Notes under the pieces: generated by a model
Databases searched by the model: none
Told to the model about the DNA's origin: nothing
What the model saw: only the letters and a program-made list of their open reading frames with translations
Shown here: piece after piece, positions 7,808-26,311 of the stretch
Layout of the letters: each line of letters opens with the position of its first letter
Position numbering within the stretch: position 1 is the first letter of the stretch
Source: Candidatus Thiodiazotropha sp. (ex Epidulcina cf. delphinae)
GTDB lineage: Bacteria > Pseudomonadota > Gammaproteobacteria > Chromatiales > Chromatiaceae
NCBI GenBank assembly: GCA_025656455.1
Contig: JAHXHS010000016.1
Location: 1-64,000, forward strand
Direction of reading: 5' to 3'
DNA length: 64,000 nucleotides
Program-made: the position numbers and the translations under genes

Positions 7808-9244
7808 CTAGCCGTGTTTTTCGGTAATCATGGCATCGATGCGATCCATCACTTGATCACTGGAATGTTCCATCTCCTTGTAAGTCTCGAATATCTTGGC
7901 CTGCAGTTCTTGATCCTTCTGCCACTCCTGGGTGAGGTATTCAAGTGCGGCATGGCCCGCCTTATGGACCTCTGCGTGCGGCGATTCAAGTTCCCTGAAG
8001 GCCGATAGCCGGCCAAACGTCTCTTTGCCGGTTCCTTCATAGTACCACTTGCCGAGGCGGCAGCCGTGGTGGTCCACCATGACGGCCTGGGCATCTGCAT
8101 TGTCCGTGCCTGCATGAAACGATTTGTAGGCCTTTTGTTTGTAAATCATGTGGTCCACCTTGACCAGTGAGGCATAGCAGATATCGTGGGCGAAATCGAC
8201 GGAGGTATAAGTCGTTTGCGCCTGCTCGGCAAAGACATTGAAATCGGTATTCATCGCCTCCACGGCGGTTTGTACGCTGTTGGCCATCTCCAGCATTTTG
8301 CTTGAGTTGGTCTGCATGGCCGTCGTCTCGCCCTGAAAGGTGGTGACCACTGCGCGAATCTCGTCCGTCGCCTTTTTGGTGCTCTTCGCCAGTTTCTTGA
8401 CCTCATCCGCCACCACGGCAAAGCCGCGACCGTGTTCACCCGCCCTGGCCGCTTCTATGGAGGCGTTCAAGGCCAGGAGGTTGGTTTTGTCGGCAATCTC
8501 GCTGATCATGCCGAGGATACCGGTTATCTCGTCACTCATGGCGTTGAGCTTGTCCATGGTCTGGTGACTTTGCTCGATCATGCCGAGGGTTTGGGTCTGG
8601 GAATCGAGCACCTGGGAGACGGCCCCCTGACTCTCCTGGGCCTTCTGCATATTGTCGGTGGCGATCTGGGAGACTTTCTGCATCTCGTTGGTGATATGCG
8701 CCAGATCATTCTGGCTCAGCAGCAGGTTGTTCATGGTCTGATTGGTATTCAGTTCCTGCAGCTTGGCGGCCATCTCGTTACGTTTGATAAAGCTCGCATT
8801 GTCAGCCATGGCGTCCAGGGAATCGTTGATGCGCGCAAGACTCTTTCCCAACTCGCCATCCATGCCCGCAGGCAGCGTACGCCGATAGTAACGGCCCTGG
8901 GAGACCAGTTCGAAGCTGGTCTTTACCTCGCGGAAAAAGGTCTCTAACTGATCCAGGGATTCATTCAGATTCCAGGCAATGCGTCCCATCTCACCCGTCC
9001 AGGGAACATGGGTGATGCGTGAGCCAAACTGGCCTTCGAGCATTTCACGCAGCACTTCGTCTATCCGCTTGATGACGAAAAAAGGCATCTTCATGCGATG
9101 GCTGATGACCGATCCGACTATCAGGGTAAGTGCTGGAAACAGCCACAACCAGTGACGGTATCCATCCATCATGAGAACCGACAGGATACTGAAGAGATTC
9201 AGCAGTACGAAAACTGCCACATAGCGGTGTAACCTAGCTTGCAT
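7808..9244 (-). CDS. Methyl-accepting chemotaxis protein with C-terminal CZB zinc-binding domain
   Basis: The 478-residue receptor has two close N-terminal membrane segments (about residues 8-24 and 31-47) with almost no periplasmic loop, a HAMP-like linker, and a signalling hairpin whose tip reads [23 protein letters not shown]-terminal CZB domain contains KVDHMIYK, the [13 protein letters not shown] core and [14 protein letters not shown] domains bind zinc and can sense hypochlorite through the cysteine. Lack of a periplasmic ligand domain suggests cytoplasmic or membrane-redox sensing, with input from the downstream PAS protein. It starts the MCP-PAS operon. Confidence 0.92.
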
Positions 9245-9986
9245 GGTTCACAAACCTTTGTTCAGTGATGGCATGACACAAATACTCTACGGTTGCCTTG
9301 ATGGCATCCCCGGAGCCCGCCCGTTTTTTTTCGCCCTTCACCGCTGTGTGAAGCGTTGCGAAAAATAGATGCCAGCTTCCTGACTTGGTTTCCGCCTGAC
9401 AAATATGTATGAATACCCGGTTTGTGGAGGTTGTCCTCTCCTTAGGGGCGGCATTTCGTCATCATGGCGCTCAGCCTTACCTCCAGAACTGTTATTGCTA
9501 TCTGGTTTTCATACCCCATCCCTTGGATATTTACGCGAATAAACGTCCGGTCGGTCATCTTAGGGCCTGTTATTAACCTAGTACCTTGATAGGCCATGTT
9601 CAACTATCGTACGCTAGGTTAATAGCGCTAATACTATATCGCCAGATTCAGCGGAACCTTTAGAACCCGCTGCGAATTGAGCCGCATCCGCTATTTTGGA
9701 CATCAGGGAGAAGAACGGGGTAAGTATCAACCCGTGCTTTTTTTCGCCTGCACGTCGCCATCCTATTTTAAATCGGTGCGGCAGGGCCGCACCCTACGCT
9801 TTGAATCCTCGTTTAGCACATCTGGCTAAATGTCTCTCGTCGAGTTCACCAAGAGCGCATTCTCTGAGAATCCGTTGCGGGCTTGGCGAGAATTTCTTTT
9901 GCTCTTATGATCTCTGCAAGGGTCCTGTTACTATTGACTGGGTTGCTATCAGGAATGACATTGCGCCAATACTCAAAGGAGGAAAG
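9245..9986. other. 742-base intergenic region with several inverted repeats
   Basis: No gene is supported; the in-frame extension of the downstream SIMPL gene lacks a ribosome site and family similarity. The stretch contains the inverted repeat at 9571-9624, a GGTGCGGC-AGG-GCCGCACC hairpin at 9775-9793, and a fragment around 9878-9910 (GGGCTTGGCGAGAATTTC) that resembles the inner part of the 196-base tandem repeat at 45.9 kb. Confidence 0.55.
9571..9624. repeat. Inverted repeat TATTAACCTAG ... CTAGGTTAATA
   Basis: Perfect 11-base arms are separated by about 32 bases in the gap between the chemoreceptor and the SIMPL protein gene. It is not followed by a T tract on either strand, so a protein-binding site or repeat remnant is more likely than a terminator. 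Confidence 0.5.
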
Positions 9987-10697
9987 ATGTCCAGAAATAC
10001 CACCCGTCGCTGCATAGGCTTTGCCCTTGTCTGCCTGATGTGGGCGTCCCAACCCCTGGTGTCGGGGGAACAGGATCCTCGCTACGATCTGGTCAAGCTG
10101 AGCGCGCAGGCCTCCGCGGAGGTGGACAACGATACCCTGATCGCCGTGCTGTATGCGCAAAAGGAGGGCAAGGATCTCACCCAGTTGACCGGCAACGTCA
10201 ATCGTTTGATCGCCCAAGGGGTCGATATGGCAAAGCGCGGTAAGGGCGTCAAGGTCCAGACCCTTGGTTACCAGACCTTCCCCATTTATCAGCAACAGCG
10301 TCTTTCCGGCTGGCGTGTGCGCCAATCGATCCGTCTGGAGAGCCGGCAGAGTGACAGGCTGAGCGAACTGCTGAGCAGACTGCAATCGAGCCTGGCCCTG
10401 GAGTCGGTCAGCTATGCCATCTCTCCCGAACGCCGCAGGGAGACGGAGGATAACCTGACAAAACAGGCCATAGACGCCTTTCGCCAACGGGCGAAGCTGA
10501 TCACCCATCAGTTGGGCCGCGGCCAATACCGGCTGGTGGAGATGACCGTGCAGACTTCCGGCCAGGCGGTCCAGCCGTTGCGCATGCGCGCCAGCATGAT
10601 GGCCATGGAGGGCGCCTCCGCCGCACCGACCCTGGAGGCCGGCAGCCGCACCGTGCAGGTCGAGATCACCGGGAGCATCGAGTTGCAGATTGAGTAA
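9987..10697 (+). CDS. Secreted SIMPL-domain (DUF541) protein
   Basis: I start at the ATG at 9987, which has AAAGGAGG directly upstream; the open frame extends further upstream without support. The 236-residue product has a signal peptide (basic MSRNTTRR, hydrophobic FALVCLMWASQPLV, cut near SGEQ) and a SIMPL/DUF541 domain, recognisable by VKLSAQASAEVDNDTL at the start, the KGVKVQTLGYQTFPIY segment and VEITGSIELQ at the end. SIMPL proteins are periplasmic or outer-membrane proteins of unclear, often stress-related function; the family resembles oligomeric lipoprotein-like assemblies. It is convergent with the kinase operon and appears to be a single-gene unit. Confidence 0.8.
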   Translation: MSRNTTRRCIGFALVCLMWASQPLVSGEQDPRYDLVKLSAQASAEVDNDTLIAVLYAQKEGKDLTQLTGNVNRLIAQGVDMAKRGKGVKVQTLGYQTFPIYQQQRLSGWRVRQSIRLESRQSDRLSELLSRLQSSLALESVSYAISPERRRETEDNLTKQAIDAFRQRAKLITHQLGRGQYRLVEMTVQTSGQAVQPLRMRASMMAMEGASAAPTLEAGSRTVQVEITGSIELQIE

Positions 10698-10828: not shown

Positions 10829-13800
10829 TTATTCCAGATATTCCACCTGGGATGAGAGTATTCGCCGAACCGCCGTCATCAGTGCGGATCCGTCGACGGG
10901 TTTCTGCAACAGCTCCGCAATCCTCAGGTCTTGCAACAACTGTGGAGTGATGACCTTGCTGTAACCGCTACAGAGCACCACCGGCACCTCGCAACCCATG
11001 GCGCGCAGCGCCTGTACGAACTCGGCGCCGCTCATGCCGGGCATGGATTGATCGCTGACAACCAGATCGTACGCCTCGGATGTCTGGGCGATGCGCCCCA
11101 GGGCCTGCACCCCGGTGCCGCAGCAGTCCACCTCGGCCCCACTGTTGCTCAGCAACTCGTCCAGATAGGTCTGGATCTGAGTCTCGTCATCCACCACCAG
11201 CACCTTCCTGCCATCCAGACTGAACGCCTCGTCGTCGCCGGCCGACCGCCCGCTCTCCATCTGGTCTGTCACGGACTCCCGGATCGGAGGCAGCAGGATC
11301 TGGAAACAGGAGCCCTGGCCCGGCGTGGACTCGACCAGCACGTGGCCGCCATAGGTCTCGACGATGCCCCGCACCACCGCCAATCCCATGCCCGATCCCT
11401 CACCCACCTCCTTGCTGGTGACAAAGGGCTGGAAGATATCCTCTAGCAGCGCTTGCGGGACGCCACGGCCTGAGTCGCTGACCCGAATGCACACCCACTC
11501 TCCTTGCAGCGCCTGACGACAAACGCTACAACTCCTGCCAGACCCTGAACAGAGGGACACGCCGATCGTGATGATACCCGATTCCTCAATGGCATCCCTG
11601 GCATTGATGCAGAGATTCATCAGTAGCTGCTGCACATGCAGCGGATCTATCCTGACACTGGGGGAGTGTTGCGGCAGCTCGGTGCGAATCTCCACCATCG
11701 CCGGCAGCATCGGCCGGAGCATCTTCAACACCTCCTTGATCAGGGGAGCCAGCACCACCTGCTTGGCCGATGCCGTGGTATCCCCACGACTGAAAATCAA
11801 CAACTGCCGCACCAGATTGCGCGCCCTGCCGCCGGCGATCTCGATCTGCTGCAGATACTCTTTCAGCTTCTCGTTTTCGCCGCCGAAGCGGTCCTGGGCC
11901 AACTCGGTGAAGCCGAGGATGCTGCCGAGGATATTGTTGAAATCATGGGCGATGCCGCCGGTGAGTTGCCCAACCGCCTCCATTTTCTGAGTACTGATCA
12001 AGGCCTGCTGCAAACGGCGCGCCTCGGAGATATCGCTGACCAGCGCCATCGCCCCGGCGTATTGTCCGTCGTCATCGTAGAGGGGATCGGCGGTAAGAGA
12101 GACCCAAAGCTCCGAACCGTTCTTGCGTAGAAAGCGAAAGTCGTGTCTTTCCGATTCACCCTGCTGTCTCGCTACCAATTTTTTTTCTGCGATCGCCCGG
12201 CCCTGCTCATCCATGAAACTGAACAGATGCCTGCCCAACATCTCCTCCTCGGTATGTCCCAGCATGACCGCCATCCGGGGATTGACAAACTGGGTCTCTC
12301 CCTGGGCGTCGATCACCCAGATCCCCTCGTGCGCCGTCTCGACGATCTGTCGGTACTTCTCTTCACTGAGACGCAGAGCCTTTTCCCCCTCGACACGCTC
12401 ACTCACGTCCCGCTGCGAACTCATATAGGCGATCACCTTGCCGTGATCGTCCTTCAAGGGGGAGATCTGGTGCTGGCAGACAAACAGTGTCCCGTCCTTG
12501 CGCCGATTCAACAGTTCCCGGTTTACCTGACGCCCCGCCCGGAGCCGTTGATAGATCTGTGGATGGATCGCCTCGGCATTCGCTTCCCCATTGAGCAATT
12601 CAGGCTTCTTGCCGCGCAGGTCATCGAGTGTATAACCGTACAGCTTGTGAAAGGCTTCATTGATATAGGTAATACGAAACTCGATATCGGTCAGCAGGAT
12701 CGCATCCACCGACTGCTCAACGATCTCCGACAACCGCCAACGCTCCTCCTCCGCCGCCTTTTGCGCGGTGATATCGACCATCACCCCCACCAAGGTGACC
12801 GGCCTCTCCCCTTCCAGGATCACGCTGGTGATGTCATGCAGCCAAACCACCCGGCCGTCGGCGGCGATCATGCGATAGTCGAAGCTGTGATCCTGCCGAT
12901 TCCGGGTGGCGGTGAGACAATAGTTCGGCGCCCAACCCCGATCCTCAGGATGGATGCGCGAAACCCAGAAGTCGACCTCGTCCAACCACTGTTGAACCGG
13001 ATAGCCGAGGATGGTTTCGGCCTCTTGACTGACAAAGGTGAACTGAAAGGTCTCGGCGTCCACTGAAAAGAGAATCGCGGAGGTTGACTCCACCAGGGAG
13101 CGGTATTGCCGCTCCTGCTCCCTGAGCTGCTCTTCGAGCCGTTTCCGACGGCTGATATCCACCAGGGTGCTGATCAATATCCGCCGCCCCTTGATTTCCA
13201 TACTACTGGCATCGACCAATACCGGAAGTTGCGAACCGCCTTTTGTACGCAGCACCGATTCGAATCTAGCCTTGCCCTTTGCCGCAATGTGCCGCCACTG
13301 CTCGTCAAACCACTCCGCGGAGGCGTTGACGACCAACTCCCGCAGACGAAGCTGCCGGAGTTCGTCCCGCGCATAGCCAAGCATGGCCTTTCCGGTGGCA
13401 TTGAGATCCAGTATGGCGCCATCCTTCTCATCGAGGATGCCGACGCCTATCGGGGCATTGTCAAAGATGGCGCGAAATTTCTTCTCGCTCTCATGCAGGG
13501 CCTGCTCGGCAAGGTGGCGCTGGGTAATGTCACGCACCGTGATCAACACCCCGGTGATGCGACCCTCCTCATCCCGGTAGGGATTGTGGCTGGCCTCGAC
13601 ATAGAGCCGCTTGCCGGGATAGTCAACGCAGGTGACGTCAAAGTGGACCGCCTCGCCGGCGAAACACCTGGCCAGATGCGGGGCCGAGACCTCTTCGAAG
13701 AACGCCTGACCCACCACTTCCGAGATATGCGCCCCGATCACCTGATCGCTCTTTTTCTGCCACAATTCGAGGTAGACGTCGTTCGCCGCCCGGTAGACAT

Positions 13801-14701
13801 AGTCGCGGTCGATGAAGACCAACGCATCGCTACTGGCGGATACCATCTCTGCGTAACGGCGCAGCTCCTTTTCGTAGCGCACCCGTTCGGTGACATCCTG
13901 GAGGGCCGTCAGATAGCCCTGCAATGCGCCATGCCGGTCATACAGGGGAGACACCTGGATCTCACACTGGATCCATTCACCCTCTTTTTTGCTCAGATCA
14001 ACGATCACCCCACCACCGAGCGGGTTCTGGTAGAGCTGCCGTCCGGCCTGTTCGAAGGCCTCTTCGTCCGCATAGAACATGCGCGGGGTGTTGCCGAGCA
14101 TCTCCTCTGCCGAGTAACCGAGCAGATGGTAGACGGCGCTGCTCACCTTGGTGATGCGTCTCTCCCGATCCAGGACTGCCACGGCAAACGGCAACTGGCG
14201 AAAAATGCCGTCCAGCAATTCAACGTATTTCCCTAGCCCGACCTTTGCGCACTGGGAATCAGAGGCATCGTAAGTTGCCATGTCGAACAGGCCGGAGGGC
14301 TGTTCGGCCAACACATCGGCTTTGCCTGCGTCGGTGATGTCGCGCACAAGCATCATGAAGGCCGGGGTTTGATCAGGGGATGCCGGCACGGACCGAAGCT
14401 TCAACTGGAGACAACGGCTGCCAACTTCGCTCCCAAGTCGCAGTTCGCGTTCCATGCCGCTCCCGGCGCCTTCCTCCTCCAATGCCTGCATCAGTGGCGC
14501 ACAGGGCGTCTGTCGCAGCATCGATATTGGCTCGCCGACTGCAACCGATTCGGGGAGCTGTAACAGGCGTCTGCAGCTATCGCTCAGGGCGGTAATCCTT
14601 CCCCCGCTGCTCCAGGCAATCAGACCGACCCCCTCCAGTTCGTCCAGCAAGACGTCGAGGAGTATCCCTGCATCCTGGTCCTGAAACGATCGACTTGACA
14701 T
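10829..14701 (-). CDS. Hybrid histidine kinase with seven PAS domains and a receiver
   Basis: This 1290-residue soluble kinase has seven PAS repeats (cores near residues 25, 173, 294, 419, 542, 666 and 793), a HisKA domain with the phospho-accepting H919 (GGIAHDFNN), an HATPase domain (N box near CINARDAIEE 1031-1040, G box SGMGLAVV near 1104) and a C-terminal receiver with D1217 (LVVSDQSMPG). A CxxC pair (C1058, C1061) sits in the HATPase domain between the N and G1 boxes. There is no membrane segment, so signals are cytoplasmic or come from partners. AAGGAGGA precedes the ATG, 15 bases after the previous gene. It is the last gene of the five-gene leftward signalling operon. No HPt or output domain is present. 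Confidence 0.92.
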   Translation of the reverse strand: MSSRSFQDQDAGILLDVLLDELEGVGLIAWSSGGRITALSDSCRRLLQLPESVAVGEPISMLRQTPCAPLMQALEEEGAGSGMERELRLGSEVGSRCLQLKLRSVPASPDQTPAFMMLVRDITDAGKADVLAEQPSGLFDMATYDASDSQCAKVGLGKYVELLDGIFRQLPFAVAVLDRERRITKVSSAVYHLLGYSAEEMLGNTPRMFYADEEAFEQAGRQLYQNPLGGGVIVDLSKKEGEWIQCEIQVSPLYDRHGALQGYLTALQDVTERVRYEKELRRYAEMVSASSDALVFIDRDYVYRAANDVYLELWQKKSDQVIGAHISEVVGQAFFEEVSAPHLARCFAGEAVHFDVTCVDYPGKRLYVEASHNPYRDEEGRITGVLITVRDITQRHLAEQALHESEKKFRAIFDNAPIGVGILDEKDGAILDLNATGKAMLGYARDELRQLRLRELVVNASAEWFDEQWRHIAAKGKARFESVLRTKGGSQLPVLVDASSMEIKGRRILISTLVDISRRKRLEEQLREQERQYRSLVESTSAILFSVDAETFQFTFVSQEAETILGYPVQQWLDEVDFWVSRIHPEDRGWAPNYCLTATRNRQDHSFDYRMIAADGRVVWLHDITSVILEGERPVTLVGVMVDITAQKAAEEERWRLSEIVEQSVDAILLTDIEFRITYINEAFHKLYGYTLDDLRGKKPELLNGEANAEAIHPQIYQRLRAGRQVNRELLNRRKDGTLFVCQHQISPLKDDHGKVIAYMSSQRDVSERVEGEKALRLSEEKYRQIVETAHEGIWVIDAQGETQFVNPRMAVMLGHTEEEMLGRHLFSFMDEQGRAIAEKKLVARQQGESERHDFRFLRKNGSELWVSLTADPLYDDDGQYAGAMALVSDISEARRLQQALISTQKMEAVGQLTGGIAHDFNNILGSILGFTELAQDRFGGENEKLKEYLQQIEIAGGRARNLVRQLLIFSRGDTTASAKQVVLAPLIKEVLKMLRPMLPAMVEIRTELPQHSPSVRIDPLHVQQLLMNLCINARDAIEESGIITIGVSLCSGSGRSCSVCRQALQGEWVCIRVSDSGRGVPQALLEDIFQPFVTSKEVGEGSGMGLAVVRGIVETYGGHVLVESTPGQGSCFQILLPPIRESVTDQMESGRSAGDDEAFSLDGRKVLVVDDETQIQTYLDELLSNSGAEVDCCGTGVQALGRIAQTSEAYDLVVSDQSMPGMSGAEFVQALRAMGCEVPVVLCSGYSKVITPQLLQDLRIAELLQKPVDGSALMTAVRRILSSQVEYLE

Positions 14702-14716
14702 CTGAGTCCTCCTTCT

Positions 14717-17700
14717 TCAGGTTTGATGCCCTTCCCGGGTACTATCTAACGGAATCAGAGACTCCACGGCCTGTCGTAACGCTTGAATATCGATGGGCTT
14801 CTCCAGGTAGCGTTGAATGCCGAACCGGCTGGCGCTCGCCTCGTCCACCTGGTCACTATGGCCGGTACAGAGTATCACCGGCAGTCCGGGGCGCAGTTGT
14901 CTGGCCTCTTTCAGCAATTCGGTGCCGGTGAGTCCCGGCATGGTCTGGTCGACAATCATCAAGTCATAGGCGTGTTGCGGATCCTCGAGCAGCTTGAGAG
15001 CCTGCCGGCTCTCCGTCAATCCATGCACCCGAAGACCGCTCTCCTCAAGGATCTCCCGCAGCAACAGCACGATGCCTGGCTCGTCGTCCACCACCAGGAC
15101 ATCCCCCGAGAGTCGCCTGTGGACTCCCTCCTCTTCCAGCTTCAGCGCCTCGGCCTGCGGAGGCTCAGGGGCCTCTAGCGGCGGAAACATCAGCCGGATC
15201 ACCGTACCCTGACCCGGTTTGCTGCGTATCATCACATGGCCGCCGTGGCGCTCCATCAGCCCCTGCACCACCGACAGTCCCAAGCCGGTTCCCTTACCCA
15301 CCGGTTTGGTGGTGAAAAAGGGCTCGAATACCCGTTCCATATGGTCGGGGGCGATTCCCTCACCCGTATCCGTGACCTTCAACTCCACCCAACTGCCGCG
15401 CAGTTTGGTATGACAGGTGTCGCACTCGCTCTTCACCTGATCCACCTGTCGCAAGTCGAGGGTGATCTTTCCCTTTCCCCGCATGGCATCGCGGGCGTTG
15501 ACAAAGAGATTCATCAGGATCTGCTGCAGCTCGCCGGCATTCATCTGCACATCCTGCACCCCTGACCCGGCTTGGTAGTCGATCTTGATGCTGGAGGGCA
15601 GGGTAGCGCGCGCCAGGGTGACTATCTCTTCCACCAGCGGCTTCAGCAGGGTACGCATCGGCGCTGCCTCTTCGCTGCGACTGAAGGTGAGCATCTGGCG
15701 CACCATATCCTTGGACTGCTCGCCCGCCTGCTCGATATGGCGCAGATACTCCAGCAACTTCTCATCCCCATCGCCACCGAGCCTGGCCCTCATCAGGGCG
15801 GCATGCCCGAGTATCACCGCCAGCATATTGTTGAATTCGTGGGCGACGCCCCCGGTGAGCTGGCCCAGCGCCTCCATCTTGCGGGCATGCTGCAGCTCCC
15901 TCTCAATACGGGTGCGCTCCTGTTCACTCTCTTTCTGGGTGGTGATATCGAGTAGATATCCGTGCAGCACGCTGACCTCTCCCACCGCATCACGAATCAC
16001 CCGGGTGAAATCGTAAAAGACCCGGTACTCGCCATCGGCGCGGCGCAATCGGTACTCCTGCTCGAAATCGACGCGCCCGTCAGCGATATACCGGCTGACC
16101 TCGTCCGCCACCCGCTTCAGGTCCTGCGGGTGGACCAGGTCGGCGAAATTCACCCGCCCCTGGATGAATTCCTCAGTGTGGTATCCCAATTCCAATTTGA
16201 CATTCTCGGTACAGAACTCAACCGGCCAGCCGGGCTTGGGCAGCCAACGAAACACCATCGCGGGACCACCGGTGAAGAGTTCCCGCTCTTCGCTCAAGGC
16301 CCGGTTGGCCGCCAGCAGGTCGAGCCCAGCCTGCTTGCGCTGAGAGATATCGTCCACCATCCAGATGACACCCTTGCCGAGATCCGCCGGCAATTGCGTA
16401 TCCAGCGCCTTGCCGGATAGCTGGCACCAGACAGGCGTCCCATCCTTGCGCCGCAATGGATGCTCCACACAGACCGCCTGATGGTCGGCCAGGATGTCAT
16501 GGTATGCCTTGCTGAACTGACGGAAGCCTTCGGCCGAGAGATAGAGCTGCCCCGCGCTGACCCTCTGCAATTCACCGGGCTCGTCGTAGCCGAGGATCTC
16601 CGCTAGGCGCTGATTACCGTTAGCGAACCTGTCTCCCATGAGCAGCATGATGCCAACCTGGGAGTTTTCGAAGATCGCCAATAGCTGTGCTTCGCTGTCA
16701 CGTATGCGCTGCTCTGTTTCGCGGCGCCTGCTGATGTCGGTGTGGGTGCCGATCATGCGCAAAGGCCTGCCCTGTTCGTCCCGACTGACCGTGACGCCTC
16801 GAGCAAGGATCCACTTGTAATCGCCCTCCTTGCAAAGCAGTCGATGCTCGACGGCGTACTCGTTTTGATTGCCTTCGAGGTAACCTCGCAAGGCCTGCTC
16901 GACCCTTGCCCTGTCCTCCGGGTGGATCAGGGAGTCCCATCCCTCGAAATCATTACAGATTTCATCCTCCCGGTAGCCGAGCATCCCCTTCCATCGCCTG
17001 GAAAAGAAGCTTTTTCCGCTCTGCACATTCCAGTCCCACACCCCGTCTCCCGCCCCCTCGAGGGCATATTTCCAGCGAAATTCACTGGCCGCCAACTGTA
17101 CGGTCTGTTGTTTCAGCAGACGGTTCTTTTCGTTCTCTCTGCGCTCCGCCTCCTTAAGATCGGTGATGTCCTCTTTCACTGCCAGCAAATGGGTGACCTT
17201 TCCCCGCTCATCGGTGATTCCCTGAATCACAGCCCGCTCCCAGTAGAAGACGCCGTCCTTGCGGCGGTTGTGCAGCGTACCCGTCCAGCAACCGCCGGAG
17301 AGGATCCTCTCCCACAATTCCCGATAGGTCTGTTGCGGTGTCTCGCCCGATTTCAGCAGACGGGGATTCCTGCCCCGCACCTCCTCCATGCTGTAACCGC
17401 TAACCTGGGTGAATTGGGTGTTGACGTATTCGATGCGCCCTTGAGTGTCGGTGATCATCACCGAAGCCGGACTCTGCTCCATCGCCTGTGACAGCAGTTT
17501 GAGATAAGCATCTCTCTGTCCGTTATGCATCAGCCCCGCACCCAACTCGTGCGCGCCTCCATGCGGTTCGTCATCTGCCTGTCCGGTGTGAGCCCGATCG
17601 GCGGAGGCCTTTACCTCTCCTATCGCTTTCCGCTGCAGCTGTTTGTCCAGGCGATCTATCTTGTTGCCGCCTTCCACCCCTGCCCAATGCAACGCCAACT

Positions 17701-18052
17701 GGACGGCGTGCGCCAGCTCTTGTGGCCCAACATCCCGTTTGACATAGCCGCAAGGCAGGGTGTGCAGGATGCGTCTCAGCGTTCCGATATCCGCGGCCTT
17801 GTCAACGATGAAAATCACCGGGATGGCGCACAGCTGCCACAACCTGATGGCGACCCGCTGGGCGTCGATATCGGGCTCGACGGAGAACGGCAGCACGACC
17901 AGATCGGGGGCCAGCCGTTTCGTCGCCTGTACGACGCCTTTGCCCGCAAGGGATGCATGAGTGACTCGATAGCCCTCATCCTCGAGGATTGATTCGAATA
18001 GATCCCTGGTATCGGATTCATCCTCCCTATGCAGAAAATGGATTTGTTTCAT
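14717..18052 (-). CDS. Hybrid histidine kinase with N-terminal pseudo-receiver, four PAS domains and a receiver
   Basis: The 1111-residue protein opens with a receiver-like fold (residues 1-122: HREDESDTRDLFESIL, PDLVVLPFSVEP) in which the phosphorylatable aspartate is absent, so it is probably a pseudo-receiver. Four PAS domains follow (about 185-300, 325-445, 455-575, 590-705), then HisKA with H738 (GGVAHEFNN), HATPase, and a C-terminal receiver with D1035 (LMIVDQTMPG). A CxxC pair (C877, C880) lies in the HATPase domain at the same place as in the neighbouring kinases. It is soluble. It lies 45 bases after the preceding kinase gene and 15 before the next. No output domain is present. Confidence 0.92.
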   Translation of the reverse strand: MKQIHFLHREDESDTRDLFESILEDEGYRVTHASLAGKGVVQATKRLAPDLVVLPFSVEPDIDAQRVAIRLWQLCAIPVIFIVDKAADIGTLRRILHTLPCGYVKRDVGPQELAHAVQLALHWAGVEGGNKIDRLDKQLQRKAIGEVKASADRAHTGQADDEPHGGAHELGAGLMHNGQRDAYLKLLSQAMEQSPASVMITDTQGRIEYVNTQFTQVSGYSMEEVRGRNPRLLKSGETPQQTYRELWERILSGGCWTGTLHNRRKDGVFYWERAVIQGITDERGKVTHLLAVKEDITDLKEAERRENEKNRLLKQQTVQLAASEFRWKYALEGAGDGVWDWNVQSGKSFFSRRWKGMLGYREDEICNDFEGWDSLIHPEDRARVEQALRGYLEGNQNEYAVEHRLLCKEGDYKWILARGVTVSRDEQGRPLRMIGTHTDISRRRETEQRIRDSEAQLLAIFENSQVGIMLLMGDRFANGNQRLAEILGYDEPGELQRVSAGQLYLSAEGFRQFSKAYHDILADHQAVCVEHPLRRKDGTPVWCQLSGKALDTQLPADLGKGVIWMVDDISQRKQAGLDLLAANRALSEERELFTGGPAMVFRWLPKPGWPVEFCTENVKLELGYHTEEFIQGRVNFADLVHPQDLKRVADEVSRYIADGRVDFEQEYRLRRADGEYRVFYDFTRVIRDAVGEVSVLHGYLLDITTQKESEQERTRIERELQHARKMEALGQLTGGVAHEFNNMLAVILGHAALMRARLGGDGDEKLLEYLRHIEQAGEQSKDMVRQMLTFSRSEEAAPMRTLLKPLVEEIVTLARATLPSSIKIDYQAGSGVQDVQMNAGELQQILMNLFVNARDAMRGKGKITLDLRQVDQVKSECDTCHTKLRGSWVELKVTDTGEGIAPDHMERVFEPFFTTKPVGKGTGLGLSVVQGLMERHGGHVMIRSKPGQGTVIRLMFPPLEAPEPPQAEALKLEEEGVHRRLSGDVLVVDDEPGIVLLLREILEESGLRVHGLTESRQALKLLEDPQHAYDLMIVDQTMPGLTGTELLKEARQLRPGLPVILCTGHSDQVDEASASRFGIQRYLEKPIDIQALRQAVESLIPLDSTREGHQT

Positions 18053-18096
18053 GTTGCATCATCGTCGCTTGATTTCTCTTAAACCATGGATTCAGG

Positions 18097-21000
18097 TCAA
18101 ATCCTGCCCAGGCTGCTAACCAGCACGTCGATCAGATCGGCTGGCATCAAAGGCTTTTCCAGATAATGGTCGACGCCTTGGGCCGACGCATTTTCCTCGT
18201 TCACGCGCTCGCTATAACCGGTACAAAGCACCACCGGCAGATCCTCCCTCGCGCTTCTGACCTGTTCGATCAGTTCAAGACCGGTAAGCCCCGGCATCGC
18301 TTGATCGGTAATCAGCAGGTCAAAGGCTTCGGGGGATTGGGAAAACCGCTGCAGCGCCTTGGCGCTGTCGGTGAAGGCCTCGACGCTCAACCCCTGCATC
18401 TCAAGGAAATCCTTCAGAAACAGGACGATCGCCGACTCGTCATCGACCAGCAGCACCCGCCTCCTGGGAGGGAATCGAGGCCCGTGAGCGTCAGCATCGG
18501 TGTGGGCGATCGACTGAGATTCCCCATCATCAGAATAGGGCAGGAAAAAGAGCCTGAAGCGGGTCCCGGCATCCGTGCCTGTCTCGACCTTCACATGAGC
18601 CTGATAACCTCGCAACAGCCTCTGCACAGCAGCCAATCCCATCCCGCCCGGTCTCTCCCCTGACGGTTTGGTGGTGAATAAAGGATCGAACAGCTTACTG
18701 AGATCATCCTTTGCAATCCCTGGACCGTTATCAGTAACGCACAACTCTACTCGATCGCCGATCACGGTGGCGCCGCATGCGTTGCACGCCAGGTCGAGAC
18801 CCTGCCTGAAACTCAGCTCAACGGCAATCTCACCCTTATCGCCCAATGCGTCCTTGGCATTGATGCAGAGATTCATCAGGATCTGATTGAGGTGGACCGG
18901 ATCGATCAACACCTTCGGCAGGGTCGCCTCGCAATGGGTTTCGATGCGGATACCCACCGGCAGTGTGGCGCGCAGCAGCTTTAGCGTCTCCGCGACCAAC
19001 TGCGACATATCCTGTGGCGTCGCCTCCCGGTTTGAATCGCCCCGGCTGACGGCGATGAGCCGGGCGACCAGATCGCGCCCCCGTGTCGCAGCATCGCTGA
19101 TACCCCGCAGATAGGTCTGTAACTTCTCCTGTGACAGGGCATCGGATCGCCTGGCCAGATCGGCAAACCCCAGAATGGGGGCGAGGATATTGTTCAGATC
19201 GTGAACCACGCCACCGGTCAGTTCACCGATGGCCTCGAGTTTCTGGGCCTGGCGCATGGCTTCCAGGGCGCGCTCCCGCTCTTGTTCGGCCTGCTTCCGC
19301 CGGGTAATGTCCTGGATGGTGCCGATCACCTTGAACGGTTGGCCGCGCTGTGCATGAATACGCCCGCAACCGATCACATGGCGAATTTCGCCATCCGGGG
19401 TGATGATGCGATGTTGGTGTACGAACTCTGCCAGTTGGCCGCTTTTAACGGCCTCTTTGTTCTGCAGCATCCGCGACCTGTCATCCGGGTGGCAGCGCTC
19501 CAACAGCAACCCGAAGTCGGGCTCGGTCACCGTCTCATCGACACCGAGGATTTGGTAGATGACCTCCGACCAGCGCATGCGATCCGTCTCCGGATCATAG
19601 GCCCAGGAACCCAGGTTCGAGATCCGCTCCGCATTCTCGAGAATCAGCAAGGTCTCCTGCAGCTCCTTGCGGGCGCGATGCTCCGCGGTGATGTCCCGCC
19701 CCACACCGATCAACCCCATTACCTTGTCATCAGGCCCACGATAGGGTGTCTTTACGATATCCAACAACACCTTGCGGCCGTCCGGATACTCCATCCACGC
19801 TTCACTGCGCATGGGCATGCCACTGCTTAGAATCTGTTTGTCCTGCTCATGAAACATCTGTGCCTGGGCCACTGGCAGGATATCCTGGTCGCTGCTGCCA
19901 ACCATTTTGCTCTCCGGGATCGCGACCAGGCTTTCGAACGCCTTGTTGCAACCCAGATAGATCTGCGCCTTGTCCTTGAAAAAGATCAGATCCGGGATGG
20001 TATCGATCAGGGTGCGCAGCAGGGCGCGATCGCTGACCAGACTCTGTTCTACCCGGCGGCGCATGATCTCCCGATCGAGGCCATCAAGGGCGAAACTGAG
20101 ATCGGACGCCATCTCCCGCAATAGCCGCAGACTGTCCTCCTCCACCAGCCCCGCATCATCCGACATCACCACCAGACCGCCGATATGGGCGCCGCCACGG
20201 CGCACCGGAAACGCCGCGCCCGCGCTAAAGCCGTTCAGTTGCGCCTCTGAAAACCAATGGTTGTCACGAAGGCCGTGGTCAGCGAAATTGACGATCGACT
20301 CCTCCCCGGATTTGACGGCCGACGCCAAGGGATCGTTCTCCAATCCAATATGCTTGCGCACCGTCTCCAGCCAACCGGCCTCATCCCCTGCGATGTGTGC
20401 GATCTTCAGGGCATTGGTGCCCCTATCCACAAAGCCGATCCATACCAGCTTGATGCCGGCGTTGACCGCCACTTCACAGACATTGCTCAACAGCATCGCC
20501 TCATCAGCCACCCGCACGATCGACTGATTGGTATCACTGAGGGCTTGGTAGAGTATGCGCTGGCGCACCAATGCGGCATGGCGCCGCGAGAGCTCCTGCC
20601 CCATGAAGTTGAAACTGTGGGCCAACTCCGCCAATTCACGGCCGCCCCGCGCCTTCAGCCGCTGCCCGGTATTGCCTGCGGCCACCCGCCTGGCGGCCGC
20701 GGAGAGGCGCAGCAGGGGCCGGGTGACGGATCGATCGATCCAGAACCAGAGTATGAGAGAGAAGATCAGCACCAGGGTCACTGCCGCCGAGGTCTGGGTG
20801 ATCGCGGCTTGGTAGTGTTTCTCAAGCGCCTCGTGCAGATCGAGTTCGAGAAACAGCCAGCCACTGTTCGCCGACCCGTTCGCTCGCATCTCGGCGGTGA
20901 TCGGTATCGGCTGGTAAGCCGCCACCCGGGTCCCTTCCTTCTCGAGGCGCACCAGGCGCTGCTTGCCGGTCGGCCATTGGGCGGCCTGTAGGGGATCGAT

Positions 21001-21327
21001 CTCCGTCAGTCTGTTTCCGACCCATGCTTCCCTGGAGGCGAGAAACACCCTTCCCCCCTCGTCGAGAGCAAAGGCGCGATAAAAACAGGGAAAGGCCTCC
21101 ACGCCGGCCATCGCTTGGCGGGTCATCTCGGTCTGTCCGTGCGCCAAACCAAGGCTGATGAGCCGGTGGAGGCTGTCGATAGCGATCTCGGCGCGCTGCT
21201 GATAATGGGCCTGCAATGCCTTTCGCTCCACATGGTAGTGCCAGAATGAGAGGGACAATATCAGCGATACGGTAAAGAGCAGCAACGCCAGGGGTATCAA
21301 CCAGCGTAAGGATATCCTGTCAATCAT
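18097..21327 (-). CDS. Membrane-bound hybrid histidine kinase with HAMP, GAF, two PAS domains and a receiver
   Basis: I start at the ATG at 21327, whose ATGA overlaps the stop of the GGDEF-EAL gene; the frame is open further upstream inside that gene. The 1076-residue protein has a membrane helix (10-28), a periplasmic sensor of about 150 residues, a second helix (181-198), HAMP (199-250), a GAF domain (about 260-415), PAS domains (about 430-550 and 560-680), HisKA with H709 (GGVVHDLNN), HATPase with the shared CxxC pair (C848, C851) and a receiver with D1008 (LLITDQAMPG). It is the only membrane-spanning kinase of the three and so the likely entry point for an external signal. Confidence 0.92.
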   Translation of the reverse strand: MIDRISLRWLIPLALLLFTVSLILSLSFWHYHVERKALQAHYQQRAEIAIDSLHRLISLGLAHGQTEMTRQAMAGVEAFPCFYRAFALDEGGRVFLASREAWVGNRLTEIDPLQAAQWPTGKQRLVRLEKEGTRVAAYQPIPITAEMRANGSANSGWLFLELDLHEALEKHYQAAITQTSAAVTLVLIFSLILWFWIDRSVTRPLLRLSAAARRVAAGNTGQRLKARGGRELAELAHSFNFMGQELSRRHAALVRQRILYQALSDTNQSIVRVADEAMLLSNVCEVAVNAGIKLVWIGFVDRGTNALKIAHIAGDEAGWLETVRKHIGLENDPLASAVKSGEESIVNFADHGLRDNHWFSEAQLNGFSAGAAFPVRRGGAHIGGLVVMSDDAGLVEEDSLRLLREMASDLSFALDGLDREIMRRRVEQSLVSDRALLRTLIDTIPDLIFFKDKAQIYLGCNKAFESLVAIPESKMVGSSDQDILPVAQAQMFHEQDKQILSSGMPMRSEAWMEYPDGRKVLLDIVKTPYRGPDDKVMGLIGVGRDITAEHRARKELQETLLILENAERISNLGSWAYDPETDRMRWSEVIYQILGVDETVTEPDFGLLLERCHPDDRSRMLQNKEAVKSGQLAEFVHQHRIITPDGEIRHVIGCGRIHAQRGQPFKVIGTIQDITRRKQAEQERERALEAMRQAQKLEAIGELTGGVVHDLNNILAPILGFADLARRSDALSQEKLQTYLRGISDAATRGRDLVARLIAVSRGDSNREATPQDMSQLVAETLKLLRATLPVGIRIETHCEATLPKVLIDPVHLNQILMNLCINAKDALGDKGEIAVELSFRQGLDLACNACGATVIGDRVELCVTDNGPGIAKDDLSKLFDPLFTTKPSGERPGGMGLAAVQRLLRGYQAHVKVETGTDAGTRFRLFFLPYSDDGESQSIAHTDADAHGPRFPPRRRVLLVDDESAIVLFLKDFLEMQGLSVEAFTDSAKALQRFSQSPEAFDLLITDQAMPGLTGLELIEQVRSAREDLPVVLCTGYSERVNEENASAQGVDHYLEKPLMPADLIDVLVSSLGRI

Positions 21328-24170
21328 TGTGTCCCGCGCCCCTGCCGTTCGGTCTGATCCGCGGTAAACGCTTGACAGAATTTCACGAAGTCGTCGATCG
21401 GCAACGGATGGCTGTAATAGTACCCCTGGATATGATTGCATCCCCGATCCATCAGCCACTGCCGCTCCTCGGCCCGTTCGACGCCCTCGGCGGTGACCGC
21501 CAGTTGTTGGATCCTGGCCATCGCCAGAACGGTTTCGACAATGGCTGCATTGTGCGGATCGCCGTCCACGCCGATGATGAACGAACGGTCGATTTTCAAT
21601 CGTCCCACCGGCAACCGTTTCAAATAGGCCAGGGAGGAGAAACCCGTGCCAAAGTCATCGATGGCAAAGCGAATGCCCATCTCCTTGGCGGCGCTCATCT
21701 TCTCCACCGCCTCTTCCAGGTCATCGAGGAGCAGGTTCTCGGTGATCTCCAACTCGATACGATGGACCGGAACCCTGAATTCACCCATCAGCGCCTTAAG
21801 CCGGGAGAGAAAATCGGCACTGCGAAAATGGCGCGGGCTGATGTTGATGGCCAGACACTCCAGTCCCTGGCAGGGCAGATCCTTGAGCATCCGTTTCAGG
21901 ATCCGAAAGCCTTCGCGCAAGGTCCACTCACCGATTTCGCTGATCAATCCCAACTCCTCGGCATGGGGAATGAATGCCGAAGGCGTGAGCAGTCCGCGAG
22001 AAGGGTGGTGCCACCGAATCAACGCCTCCGCGCCGACGATACACTCGTACTGGGCGTCGATCTGGGGTTGCAGGTAGAGTTCCAACTGCCCCTGCTCGAC
22101 CGCCATGCGCAACTCCTTGCCGACCCGCAGCCGATCGTTGACCTCCGCCTGCATGCTGGGATGAAAAAAACGTATCGTATTGCGGCCTGCCGCTTTCGCC
22201 CGGTACATGGCGGTATCCGCCTGTTTCAACAATTCGTCGGCATCCATGCCTTCCGCGGGAAAGAGCACGATGCCGATACTCGTCGTGGTGACATATTCAT
22301 GCCCGTCCAGCACCACCGGCTGATTGAGGGCCTGACGTATCTTCTCCGCCACATCGCGGGCAACCGCACAGGCCTGATTGGCGTCTCCGGCAAGCAGCGG
22401 CAGCACCACCACGAACTCATCGCCACCGAGACGGGAGACGATATCCTCTTTGCGCAGGGTGCGATTCAGACGCTCCGCAACCCGGCACAGCAGGGTATCT
22501 CCGGCCATATGACCCATGGAGTCGTTGATATTCTTGAAATTGTCCAGATCCATGAAGAGCACGGCGCTATACTTATTGCGGCGCTGCGAAAGCGAGATCA
22601 TCGTCGCCAGCTCGGTGCGAAGCAGCACCCGGTTGGGCAGGTTGGTCAGGTCGTCATACAGCACCCGCCGATGGAACTGCTCCTCGGCAACCCTGCGATC
22701 CGTGATGTCCCGGGCGATGACGATAAACAGGCGTTGCGATTGGACATGGGTCTCGGTCATGGTCAATTCCAGGGGAAAGGACTCCTGATTGAAACGTTGT
22801 GCGGTATATTCGCGGCGGATATTGAGCGGCGTCCCATCGTCCCTGGTAAAGTTCTTGCGCATCAATCCCTTGAGTTCCGCATAGCCATCCGGCAGCAGGG
22901 CCTCCAGCCGGACCCGGCTGAATGCCGCTTCGGTGCAGGCGAACATACGCAAGGTGGCCGAATTGAAGGACTCGACCCGGCCGTTGGCATCGAAGGTCAG
23001 AATCGCATCCGGCGCGGTTTCCATCACGGCCTGCAGCCTGGCGCCCAGGTTGTTGGCGGATTTCAGGTTTTCCTGCCTGATCAGCGAGAGCCTGGCATAG
23101 AGCAACGAGAAAACCGCCAATAACAGGCTGACGCCCGTTCCTACCGCGTATGCGATGGCATGGGGGACCGCCCGGGTCTGTTTTATCTCCTCTTTCGAGA
23201 AACGGACCAGCAGGGTCCACTCCCTGACCGAAGGGAGATTCAATCCGTCGTTATCGTCTGCCGGAAAGGCCAATCTCTGAAAAGCGAAGATGTCTCCCCG
23301 CGCTTCAAACGCGCCGGCATCCGATTGCTGCATTCGCTGCCAGACAGCGGGAAACCGGTCCTGGAATCTCACGGCTCTCTCTGTCCCCGGATACATGAAG
23401 CCCCACTCATGGGAGGCATCCAATCCGCGCAGATAGTAGCCGTCGGCATTCAGCATCAACAGCCTGCCCTTGCTCTGGCCGATATGGACGGTATGTTGCT
23501 GCAACAGATCCTTGGCAAGGAAGTTGAGGATCAGCAAACCGCGTCTCTCTCCCTCGAAAAATACCGGTGAAGCGACTCGCAACATGGGTTTGACGGGCAT
23601 TTCGATGCGGTTGTTTTCCACATTCAGATCCAACGGGGAGGCATAGATCTCTCCCTGATCGAGTTGAATGCCCTCCTTGAAGTAGTAGCGATGGGCCTTT
23701 GACTGCAACGTCTCTGAAGATTCGGCGCGAACCTCCTTCCCGTCATAGTTGATACGCACCCGCTCCATGCCCTGGACATCGAGAAAACGCACCTGATCAT
23801 AGATGCGTTTGCTGGCGGTGAAGTAAGACCAGGCCAGCCGCAGCTTTGCCAGTGAGCCTTCATCTCCGCGCCGGAGCCATGTCATCAGCTCCTCATGACC
23901 GACCAGGATACGCAAATCCTCGATAATGCCGTTGAGTTCGTGCCGCCAGGCATTTTCGATGGCGTGCAGCTCCACCACACCGGCATCCTGAAGCCGTTGC
24001 ACGACCGCCTCGTCCTGCACCCGGATCACAAAAAAGAGCGCTCCCCAGATCAGCAGCAACAAGGGCAGCAAAATCGCCAAAGCGTATTGGGCAACAGCGC
24101 TGAAGGCCAAATTTGCATCCGCGGCTGCCAACGGTCTTTGTTTGCGCTTGATGGGGAGCTTGACACTCAT
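21324..24170 (-). CDS. Membrane c-di-GMP enzyme: Cache-PAS-GGDEF-EAL protein
   Basis: I choose the ATG at 24170, with GGAG nine bases upstream, over the ATG at 24221, which has no ribosome site. The 948-residue protein has a membrane helix (about 31-49), a periplasmic double-Cache-like sensor (50-330), a second helix (340-358), a PAS domain (370-492), a GGDEF domain with intact GGDEF at 582-586 and an RKED inhibitory site at 573-576, and an EAL domain with E715-A-L and the DDFGTG loop near 838. Both active sites look intact, so it could make and break c-di-GMP. It is second in the five-gene operon and overlaps the following kinase by ATGA. Confidence 0.92.
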   Translation of the reverse strand: MSVKLPIKRKQRPLAAADANLAFSAVAQYALAILLPLLLLIWGALFFVIRVQDEAVVQRLQDAGVVELHAIENAWRHELNGIIEDLRILVGHEELMTWLRRGDEGSLAKLRLAWSYFTASKRIYDQVRFLDVQGMERVRINYDGKEVRAESSETLQSKAHRYYFKEGIQLDQGEIYASPLDLNVENNRIEMPVKPMLRVASPVFFEGERRGLLILNFLAKDLLQQHTVHIGQSKGRLLMLNADGYYLRGLDASHEWGFMYPGTERAVRFQDRFPAVWQRMQQSDAGAFEARGDIFAFQRLAFPADDNDGLNLPSVREWTLLVRFSKEEIKQTRAVPHAIAYAVGTGVSLLLAVFSLLYARLSLIRQENLKSANNLGARLQAVMETAPDAILTFDANGRVESFNSATLRMFACTEAAFSRVRLEALLPDGYAELKGLMRKNFTRDDGTPLNIRREYTAQRFNQESFPLELTMTETHVQSQRLFIVIARDITDRRVAEEQFHRRVLYDDLTNLPNRVLLRTELATMISLSQRRNKYSAVLFMDLDNFKNINDSMGHMAGDTLLCRVAERLNRTLRKEDIVSRLGGDEFVVVLPLLAGDANQACAVARDVAEKIRQALNQPVVLDGHEYVTTTSIGIVLFPAEGMDADELLKQADTAMYRAKAAGRNTIRFFHPSMQAEVNDRLRVGKELRMAVEQGQLELYLQPQIDAQYECIVGAEALIRWHHPSRGLLTPSAFIPHAEELGLISEIGEWTLREGFRILKRMLKDLPCQGLECLAINISPRHFRSADFLSRLKALMGEFRVPVHRIELEITENLLLDDLEEAVEKMSAAKEMGIRFAIDDFGTGFSSLAYLKRLPVGRLKIDRSFIIGVDGDPHNAAIVETVLAMARIQQLAVTAEGVERAEERQWLMDRGCNHIQGYYYSHPLPIDDFVKFCQAFTADQTERQGRGTQ

Positions 24171-24252
24171 CGCAGCCTGCTCCCCCGATGCGCCCTCGCA
24201 GCCGGAATCGTCAGCAGGCATTGGTAATGCGTAATCTCACTCATCCGGCTCT

Positions 24253-24852
24253 CTAGCCCTCGGGATGGCGGGCTTCGCCCGCCATCCCGAGATCTTCCAG
24301 ATCCAGGGCGCGCAACAATTGGGACCGGGTAAAGGGCTTTTCCAGACAGACCTCGGCCCCTGCCTGGAGGATGCGTTCGACATTCTCCCGGGAGTAGTAG
24401 CCTGTCATGGCGATCACCCGAATCAGCCTCGTCTCCGGATCCGTCCGCAAGCGGCGACAGACGGAAAACCCATCCATCCCTGGCAGTATCAGGTCCAGCA
24501 ACACGATCTGCGGTCGATACTTCTGCAACAGCCTTCCGGCCTCAAAGCCATCGTTTGCGATATGGACCTGGTAGCCTGGCTGGCTGGCCGTCAATGCTTC
24601 ATAGAGAAAATCCGAGAACTGGCGGTCATCCTCTACCACCAGAATAGGCTGCAGCGTCTCCCTGGGTGGGAACAGGGTCATACCGCGACTGCGGGCGAAA
24701 CGTTTGATCTCCGAATAGGTAAAACGACGGTGACCGCCCAAGGTGAGATGGGCTCGCAGCAACCCCTTTCGCGCCCACTTGCTGACGGTGATGGGAGAGA
24801 CCCCCAGTAACAAGGCGGCATCAGAGGGTGCGAGTAGTTTCCGTTGTGCCAT
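24253..24852 (-). CDS. HTH (MerR/excisionase-like) DNA-binding domain fused to a receiver
   Basis: The 199-residue protein begins with a winged-helix MerR/BldC-like DNA-binding domain (residues 6-55: SDAALLLGVSPITVSKWARKG, then GGHRRFTYSEI), followed by a complete receiver (68-190) with acidic pocket E75-D76-D77-type residues, phospho-acceptor D120 (VLLDLILPGMDG), T150 and K172. The order HTH then receiver is the reverse of most response regulators. It is the first gene of the signalling operon and its only DNA-binding product, so it is the natural end point for phosphate from the three hybrid kinases, which lack outputs. That wiring is inference. A possible self-regulatory inverted repeat lies upstream at 24890-24916. 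Confidence 0.88.
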   Translation of the reverse strand: MAQRKLLAPSDAALLLGVSPITVSKWARKGLLRAHLTLGGHRRFTYSEIKRFARSRGMTLFPPRETLQPILVVEDDRQFSDFLYEALTASQPGYQVHIANDGFEAGRLLQKYRPQIVLLDLILPGMDGFSVCRRLRTDPETRLIRVIAMTGYYSRENVERILQAGAEVCLEKPFTRSQLLRALDLEDLGMAGEARHPEG

Positions 24853-25180
24853 GGCGGAAGTCCGGGTTGGGGCTCCCTGCCAGTAACGACTGGATCAAAT
24901 GGATCGTTTTGATCAGATTTAATTCTAGACCAAGTTGTCGCTGTTTTCCTTATTACTCATAGGGAAATCGATTTCTGAACAGCCTCCGATCCTGAACCGC
25001 TTCCCTCAGTCTGAACCGTACCGGATTGGTCTGTGTCGCGGCCTTCTGCTCAGCCACAGACACCTTCCTGGGATAAGCGTTAGCCGTAGCGATTAAATAT
25101 CCGGTATCCCCAGCCGATAACCACACAAGATATGTGTGGAATATTGGGTTTTTCTATCGTGACATAAGGGCAAGACAACC
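24853..25180. promoter_or_regulatory. Divergent control region between the signalling operon and the soluble chemoreceptor
   Basis: No gene is present. The region must hold the promoters of both neighbours. The clearest signal is an imperfect inverted repeat, CTGGATCAAA (24890-24899) against TTTTGATCAG (24907-24916), 40 bases upstream of the HTH-receiver gene. It is a plausible operator for that protein. I could not pick a convincing -35/-10 pair. Confidence 0.4.
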
Positions 25181-26311
25181 ATGTTCGGATTCAGCAGCAA
25201 AAAAACAATCGACCGGTACACTGCACAGATTTTGCGGCAGGAGACCCAAGTGCAAACACTCGAATCAGAGCTTTCATCCCTGCGGGAGGAGAATGCTCAG
25301 CTTCGACGGCAGTTGGATGACTGCGCCTCGGCGCGGCGGATTCAGGACCGGCTGCTGGGCAACTTCGTGGTGCTGGGGGATTCGTTCAACGAACTGCAGC
25401 AATCGCTGATGAACACCGCCACGGCCATGAAGGACGAGAAACGGAGCGCCATCAAAGGCTCGGAGATATCCGCCCAGGCCATAGCCGGTGTGGAGACCAT
25501 GAACGATGGCATCGAAAACGTCACCCGCATTTCGCAAGAGAGTTCGAACAGCGTCGTCAAACTGGGCGGCATCGCAGACAATATCAGTAACTTCGTCAGC
25601 ATCATTCAAGGCATTTCGGAACAGACCAACCTGCTGGCGCTTAACGCCGCCATCGAGGCTGCCCGCGCCGGTGATACGGGGCGTGGTTTTGCGGTGGTGG
25701 CCGATGAGGTCCGCAGTCTGGCGGGCAGGACCCGGGAGGCGACGAGCGAGATCGCCAACCTGGTGGAGACCATCACCCTAGAGACCAAGAAGTCGATGGA
25801 AACCATGACCTCGGCGATGGATGTAACGACCAGTTTTCACAACCAAGTCTCGCAATCCATCGAAATGATCAATCAGCAGTTCGACCTCTCCAAATCCATG
25901 GAGCAGACCATCTCATCCGTCTCCCTGCGCACCTTTGTGGAGTTGGCCAAACTCGATCACCTGATCTTCAAGTTCGGTATCTACAAGGTCTTTCTGGGAC
26001 TCTCCGATCTCACCGCGGAATCCCTCACTGACCACACAAGCTGCCGTCTGGGAAAATGGTACTACCAGGGCGAGGGGGTCGCCTGTTTCTCCCAGCTGCC
26101 TGCCTACCAGGATATCGAGGCGCCGCACCTACAAGTCCACAAGCATGGCAAGCAGGCCTTGCACCACTATTGGAATGGCGAGAAGGCGGCCGGCATCGAG
26201 GCCGTGTCAAAGATGGAAGAGGCCAGCATGGAGGTGCTTAGCCAACTAGAAAAGCTGGCGCGGGAGGGCGAGTCGGAATCCCACATTCTCTGCACGGATG
26301 AAGCGCACTAA
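25181..26311 (+). CDS. Soluble chemoreceptor with CZB zinc-binding domain
   Basis: The 376-residue protein has no membrane segment. An N-terminal coiled coil ([19 protein letters not shown], about residues 25-50) leads into a short receptor signalling domain with the tip [24 protein letters not shown] near 145-168. The C-terminal CZB domain has [20 protein letters not shown] and [13 protein letters not shown] receptors of this kind often regulate c-di-GMP enzymes rather than classical chemotaxis, which fits the GGDEF-EAL gene next door, but the link is inferred. The ATG is nine bases after AAGGG. It diverges from the signalling operon. Confidence 0.9.

Follow-up and report, generated by a model that had tools for sequence, protein, structure and literature searches.

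The closest solved relative of the regulator described here, judged by the sequence of its helix–turn–helix (HTH), is BldC of Streptomyces (PDB codes: 6ama and 6amk), which consists of a 68-residue HTH alone, has the consensus AATTXXXX(C) and acts on many targets (PMC5859096). Each BldC protomer binds one 9-bp direct repeat, with the protomers arranged head-to-tail, and Trp31, His46, Arg47 and Arg48 touch the backbone and the minor groove (PMC5859096). For the receiver, the nearest solved structure is that of a MerR-family DNA-binding response regulator from Colwellia psychrerythraea (PDB code: 3cnb), which covers the receiver alone.

The locus studied here lies in a 64,000-nucleotide stretch of DNA, hereafter the window, from a sulfur-oxidising symbiont-type bacterium of the Candidatus Thiodiazotropha lineage, whose genome is labelled G000. 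Five intact open reading frames (ORFs), all on the minus strand, together fill positions 10829–24852, with a repeat array upstream of the first:

24880..24915, minus strand: tandem 9-bp direct repeats, the candidate operator, TGATCAAAA CGATCCATT TGATCCAGT CGTTACTGG
24253..24852, minus strand: P0001, an HTH-receiver protein (HTH-REC) of 199 aa (Pfam HTH_17/MerR and Response_reg), with a BldC-type winged HTH at the N-terminus (residues ~5–58) and a canonical receiver (residues ~69–184)
21324..24221, minus strand: P0002, 965 aa (Pfam HK_sensor_dom_bact (PF21623), PAS, GGDEF and EAL)
18097..21330, minus strand: P0003, a membrane protein (Pfam HAMP, GAF, two PAS, HisKA, HATPase_c and Response_reg)
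14717..18052, minus strand: P0004, 1111 aa (Pfam N-terminal Response_reg, four PAS, HisKA, HATPase_c and a further Response_reg)
10829..14701, minus strand: P0005, 1290 aa (Pfam seven PAS, HisKA, HATPase_c and Response_reg)

The likely start of P0003 is the ATG at 21330 (1077 aa), the ORF list having the GTG at 21459 (1120 aa); the overlap with P0002 is 7 bp from the former and 136 bp if the latter is used. The remaining gaps are 31 bp (P0001–P0002), 44 bp (P0003–P0004) and 15 bp (P0004–P0005), a spacing of operon type that supports one compact operon. An earlier note on this DNA had described an HTH-receiver protein, a GGDEF-EAL protein and three hybrid kinases tightly packed on one strand, with one of the kinases in the membrane and two soluble with four and seven PAS domains, no HPt in the kinases and a single DNA-binding receiver protein; the ORF coordinates and the Pfam domain calls agree with that description throughout. 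Two details can be added. P0002, with its own predicted periplasmic sensor, is a second membrane protein, making two of the five, and at its N-terminus P0004 carries a second receiver, without the phospho-Asp (VVLPFS). The c-di-GMP motifs of P0002 (GGDEF, the RxxD I-site, EAL and DDFGTG) are intact, as they are in the related genome G136, and on these motifs the protein is predicted to be an active, bifunctional GGDEF-EAL enzyme.

BldC is the best, and the only close, match of the P0001 HTH among solved structures (E 1e-8). We refer to it as a BldC-type HTH, and not as BldC, because its score against the NCBIfam model HTH_BldC is 48.7 bits, under the curated cut-off of 77. In the AF2 model (mean pLDDT 88.7), the receiver comes directly after the HTH and there is no coiled coil; P0001 is, therefore, modelled as a winged HTH homologous to that of BldC without the coiled coil of MerR proteins. 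The best Foldseek match of the model is the receiver 3cnb (E 2.6e-12). The contact residues of BldC map to W26, H41, R42 and R43, none of which varies among 23 HTH-RECs taken from Gammaproteobacteria and Hydrogenedentota, and the base-reading residues of BldC, Arg30 and Lys26, are replaced in P0001. Its receiver retains the acidic pair, Asp, Thr and Lys (in the motifs EDD, LLDL, MTG and EKP) of a response regulator. No paper describing MerR/BldC-type response regulators was found by title or abstract, within a partial coverage of the literature, and P0001 belongs to a little-described group of regulators, whose probable binding site is a row of 9-base repeats. The same genome encodes a second HTH-REC (45%; contig C26, 14006–14551, minus strand), whose neighbours encode a receiver protein of 334 aa and a PAS kinase of 1089 aa; other congeners have similar genes.

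The array upstream of P0001 is kept in form in relatives; that of locus L003 equals that of L001 minus 18 bp, i.e. two units. When the 5-Mb genome G000 was scanned with the consensus, the sole unmismatched place was 24885–24915, in the promoter of P0001 itself, a uniqueness that concerns long arrays, as two-unit targets would escape the scan; the two matches with two mismatches both lie within an ORF. (A loose CGAT pattern was too unspecific as a genome search, giving 279 matches, and the tighter consensus was used instead.) A related pattern, allowing at most one mismatch, occurs at one place per genome in 8 of the 12 other genomes, adjoining the HTH-REC gene, with control counts of zero except for a single match in G188. 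Across a first set of loci, a period of 9 with a CGAT score of at least 13/16 was seen in 11 of 38 HTH-REC upstream regions versus 8 of 351 controls (Fisher p 8e-8), figures that are partly post hoc because the CGAT core was picked after viewing other first-set loci; the window and its relatives were where the period had first stood out. At any one period from 6 to 14 other than 9, at most 1 of the 38 promoters scored. A later, independent class-wide set, made up of 22 HTH-RECs belonging to other families and scored by the unchanged core and threshold, gave 6/22 at period 9 (p 5e-5) and 0/22 at periods 6–8 and 10–14. Some 70% of HTH-REC promoters fall under the array threshold, and the repeat of the window differs from the commoner CGAT repeat. 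P0001 is accompanied by a putative target made of 9-bp direct repeats, as in the BldC family.

A search for a sigma-70 promoter at the array of the window found none. A promoter-like sequence, TTGAA-N17-TAnnnT, is overlapped by the 9-bp array in one group of relatives only (six loci), a geometry resembling that of a repressor. Twelve HTH-REC homologs (37–41%), mostly from Hydrogenedentota, show no clear CGAT array of period 9 in those upstream regions that were read.

The repeats might instead serve some other regulator, or be a tandem repeat of mutational origin, with no relation to P0001. Slippage expands tandem repeats, and the unit sequences vary between genera; however, the period is that of the BldC footprint, it recurs across families, and it tracks the HTH-REC gene whatever its neighbours, such that we regard this explanation as quite unlikely.

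As the unmismatched candidate operator is present only at the promoter of P0001, the sequence points to local autoregulation and leaves c-di-GMP as the outward signal; in this light P0001 has more the look of a thermostat for the operon than of a final output. We would give roughly even chances to the operon being a sensory cassette that is optional, regulates itself and acts through c-di-GMP, with the kinases tuning the autoregulator P0001. As a BldC-type response regulator, with a MerR-like winged HTH, devoid of the MerR coiled coil, ahead of a receiver, P0001 would line up head-to-tail on the 9-bp repeats that precede its own gene, and from there it would set transcription of the whole operon and perhaps that of the divergent chemoreceptor gene as well. 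The hybrid kinases, P0005 first, with P0004 and P0003 as added inputs, would alter the phosphorylation of the P0001 receiver, and hence array assembly. The outward signal would be c-di-GMP, which P0002 would make or degrade; the autoregulated promoter would determine how much P0002 there is, and its own periplasmic sensor and PAS domain how active it is. The sequence itself shows the domains and motifs, the gain and loss of the cassette, and the array with its one unmismatched place here and its return at other HTH-REC promoters; binding, phosphotransfer, the sign of the regulation and the direction of the c-di-GMP change are inferred.

The earlier note had suggested a multi-input sensory complex converging on one regulator and on c-di-GMP. 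The compact operon, the paralogous kinases and the single DNA-binding receiver are supported, whereas P0001 is probably not a global end point, given a sole unmismatched candidate operator at its own promoter. In the corresponding explanation, a multi-input phosphorelay would run from the three hybrid kinases to P0001, which would be the transcriptional end point of a wider regulon, the HPt being encoded elsewhere. The HisKA His, the N and G boxes of the HATPase domain and the receiver Asp are present in P0003, P0004 and P0005, as in hybrid histidine kinases. Their cores are mutual best matches in the genome (43% identity, then 40 and 29%) and could share one partner, and in other systems, such as Roc, HPt proteins serve hybrid kinases that end in a receiver (PMC12051241). 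Against this, the HPt of a four-step phosphorelay was found neither in the operon nor free: Pfam detects none in the five proteins, and all 20 Hpt matches in the genome are in frames of at least 565 aa, a search that a divergent HPt could escape. The phospho-His of P0003 is kept in the window and in G136 and is Arg in three relatives (G188, G194 and L119), which have a changed G2 box as well, so P0003 is not an obligate kinase; P0004 was not found in the operons of G188 or G208. Taken with the long-array operator confined to the promoter of P0001, these points make the phosphorelay unlikely.

P0005 is the counterpart of a 1769-aa PAS11 protein in G188 and G194 and of a 1765-aa protein in G184. 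It is collinear with the 1769-aa protein (11 PAS), with a kinase core 70% identical, and its PAS2 and PAS3 each match two PAS domains there. A reading of P0004 and P0005 as a split of that protein was considered and rejected: the collinearity is with P0005 by itself, and P0004 possesses a kinase core of its own (43%) and contributes only one matching PAS (to PAS10; 55%).

In all three kinases, a CxxC insert lies between the N box and the G1 box of the ATPase domain. Within the genome, it occurs in 3 of 12 readable kinase segments, all three from this operon; elsewhere it occurs in 11 of 17 kinase segments from other HTH-REC loci, in the one segment (1/1) from class-wide HTH-REC flanks and in none of five from control loci (0/5). 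Homology to P0004 underlies these counts, sequences that are related do not count as independent, and a Fisher value for them is purely descriptive. Kinases of this type recur beside HTH-REC genes in other genera, an observation that speaks for the phosphorelay. Loci with the insert in kinases beside HTH-REC genes include L004, L011, L131, L135, L138, L141 and L223. It is possibly a redox or metal site; titles and abstracts, within a partial coverage of the literature, yielded no paper describing CxxC in kinase ATPase domains. A more speculative reading, which we hold to be rather unlikely, is a response regulator family in which receiver phosphorylation would gate a BldC-like head-to-tail filament on a once-per-genome 9-bp array at its own promoter; paired with CxxC-insert hybrid kinases, it would give c-di-GMP operons an autoregulatory switch that redox state or metal could tune.

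Control without phosphotransfer also deserves consideration. In the PdeR/MlrA/DgcM arrangement of E. coli, a known c-di-GMP effector, PdeR binds the MerR-like MlrA and releases it as c-di-GMP rises; P0002 might likewise act as a trigger enzyme, binding P0001 and letting go when c-di-GMP rises. The genes for the MerR-like HTH protein and the PAS-GGDEF-EAL protein do adjoin, but P0001 has a full receiver with all of its catalytic residues, and several HTH-REC loci are without an adjoining GGDEF-EAL gene; this explanation is very unlikely indeed. Under the self-regulated cassette, which we prefer, P0001 would respond to the kinases.

The surroundings of the operon were compared with those in related records, which are Candidatus Thiodiazotropha metagenome-assembled genomes, G188 being placed in the window's own genus. 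The flanking features are as follows:

25181..26311, plus strand: MCPCZB2, a soluble MCP-CZB chemoreceptor, divergent from the operon; conserved flank
9696..10697, plus strand: SIMPL (DUF541) gene, the left border of the insertion site
7808..9244, minus strand: MCPCZB1, a second soluble MCP-CZB chemoreceptor, beyond SIMPL; conserved flank

The flanks also hold a SUF Fe-S cluster, and the chemoreceptors on both sides are a point absent from the earlier note; both are kept in congeners without the cassette, and MCPCZB2 could share the control region of the operon. Elsewhere in the window, 51278–55491 and 58700–62850 each contain a pair of ORFs of ~1030 and ~360 aa that are RND-efflux-like by layout alone.

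Among the relatives compared, the five-gene order was not found outside G000, and the conservation of full gene order raised in the earlier note does not hold. At the same site, G188 and G208 have a four-gene form without P0004, comprising HTH-REC, GGDEF-EAL, membrane kinase and one large PAS kinase. G136 keeps P0002 (81%) and a receiver-less P0003 (77%), with the HTH-REC only as a remnant, and G184 keeps only the 1765-aa counterpart of P0005, with no local HTH-REC. The site is empty in six congeners (G163, G203, G192, G007, G207 and G211), where MCPCZB2 and SufE come immediately after SIMPL. The fragments in G136 and G184 are complementary, as natural deletions at one site. As P0005 persists without HTH-REC in G184, and P0002 with a receiver-less P0003 in G136, the parts of the operon are not obligately linked.

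Such partial forms lend some weight to a loose collection, in which the GGDEF-EAL protein with the membrane kinase-like protein, the PAS-rich kinase(s) and the HTH-REC would be three modules with a common promoter and no dedicated pathway. In G136, the two retained genes have dN/dS values against the window of 0.24 (P0002) and 0.25 (P0003), with flanks at 0.13–0.29, and the kinases have duplicated PAS repeats and swapped them with one another. Yet the four genes of G188 and G208 are in identical order at an identical site, the 4994-bp contig of L003 has HTH-REC then GGDEF-EAL in order (followed by a 99-aa ORF, 4631–4930, without a domain call, and the contig end; the P0003 ortholog of that genome comes from a separate contig, C212, L119), and CxxC-type kinases recur next to HTH-REC genes in other genera. 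On balance, a loose collection is improbable. Trees of MCPCZB1 and SufD firmly pair G000 with G136, the sister of the window genome, and the SufD tree unites these two with G184 and G208 (support 88/89); this grouping fits one gain of the cassette and later losses, albeit without proving it.

The unusual-looking kinase cluster is reduced to parts that can be tested: the compact repeat array at the promoter, the small regulator with its two domains and the three kinases that might act on it. Moreover, the presence, erosion and absence of the cassette at one site in one genus provide natural deletions for comparing symbiont sensory lifestyles. If the array is an operator, the HTH-REC genes of many Gammaproteobacteria would gain a predicted binding site.

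Several known systems share parts of this arrangement. Adjacent LvrA and LvrB of Leptospira, a hybrid kinase and a hybrid response regulator that arose by gene duplication, are predicted to feed DNA-binding response regulators, and the abstract describing them mentions neither GGDEF-EAL nor a BldC-type regulator (PMC5863495). The Roc system of Pseudomonas aeruginosa (RocS1/S2, RocA1/A2 and RocR) is likewise a single network in which an EAL protein and a DNA-binding response regulator occur together with several related kinases; however, RocS1 and RocS2 are unorthodox kinases with their own HPt and RocR has a receiver (PMC12051241), whereas the window operon is without HPt and P0002 without a receiver. 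CckA/VirA-like hybrid kinases (PRK13557 and PRK13837) have the HisKA-HATPase-REC core in common with the operon kinases, but the matches to these models are all under the curated cut-offs, and all three operon kinases have the CxxC insert. The C. psychrerythraea regulator (3cnb) is the best match to the full P0001 receiver (sequence E 9e-27). Lastly, BldC and P0001 have in common the closest HTH sequence, the wing with the backbone-contact residues, and 9-bp direct repeats, which for P0001 form a candidate promoter-bound array (PMC5859096). Unlike BldC, P0001 has its HTH fused to a receiver, its base-reading residues and its repeat differ, and its sole unmismatched array is at its own gene; if that array is an operator, the mode of DNA binding known from BldC, an HTH on its own, would here be seen to work under the control of a receiver.
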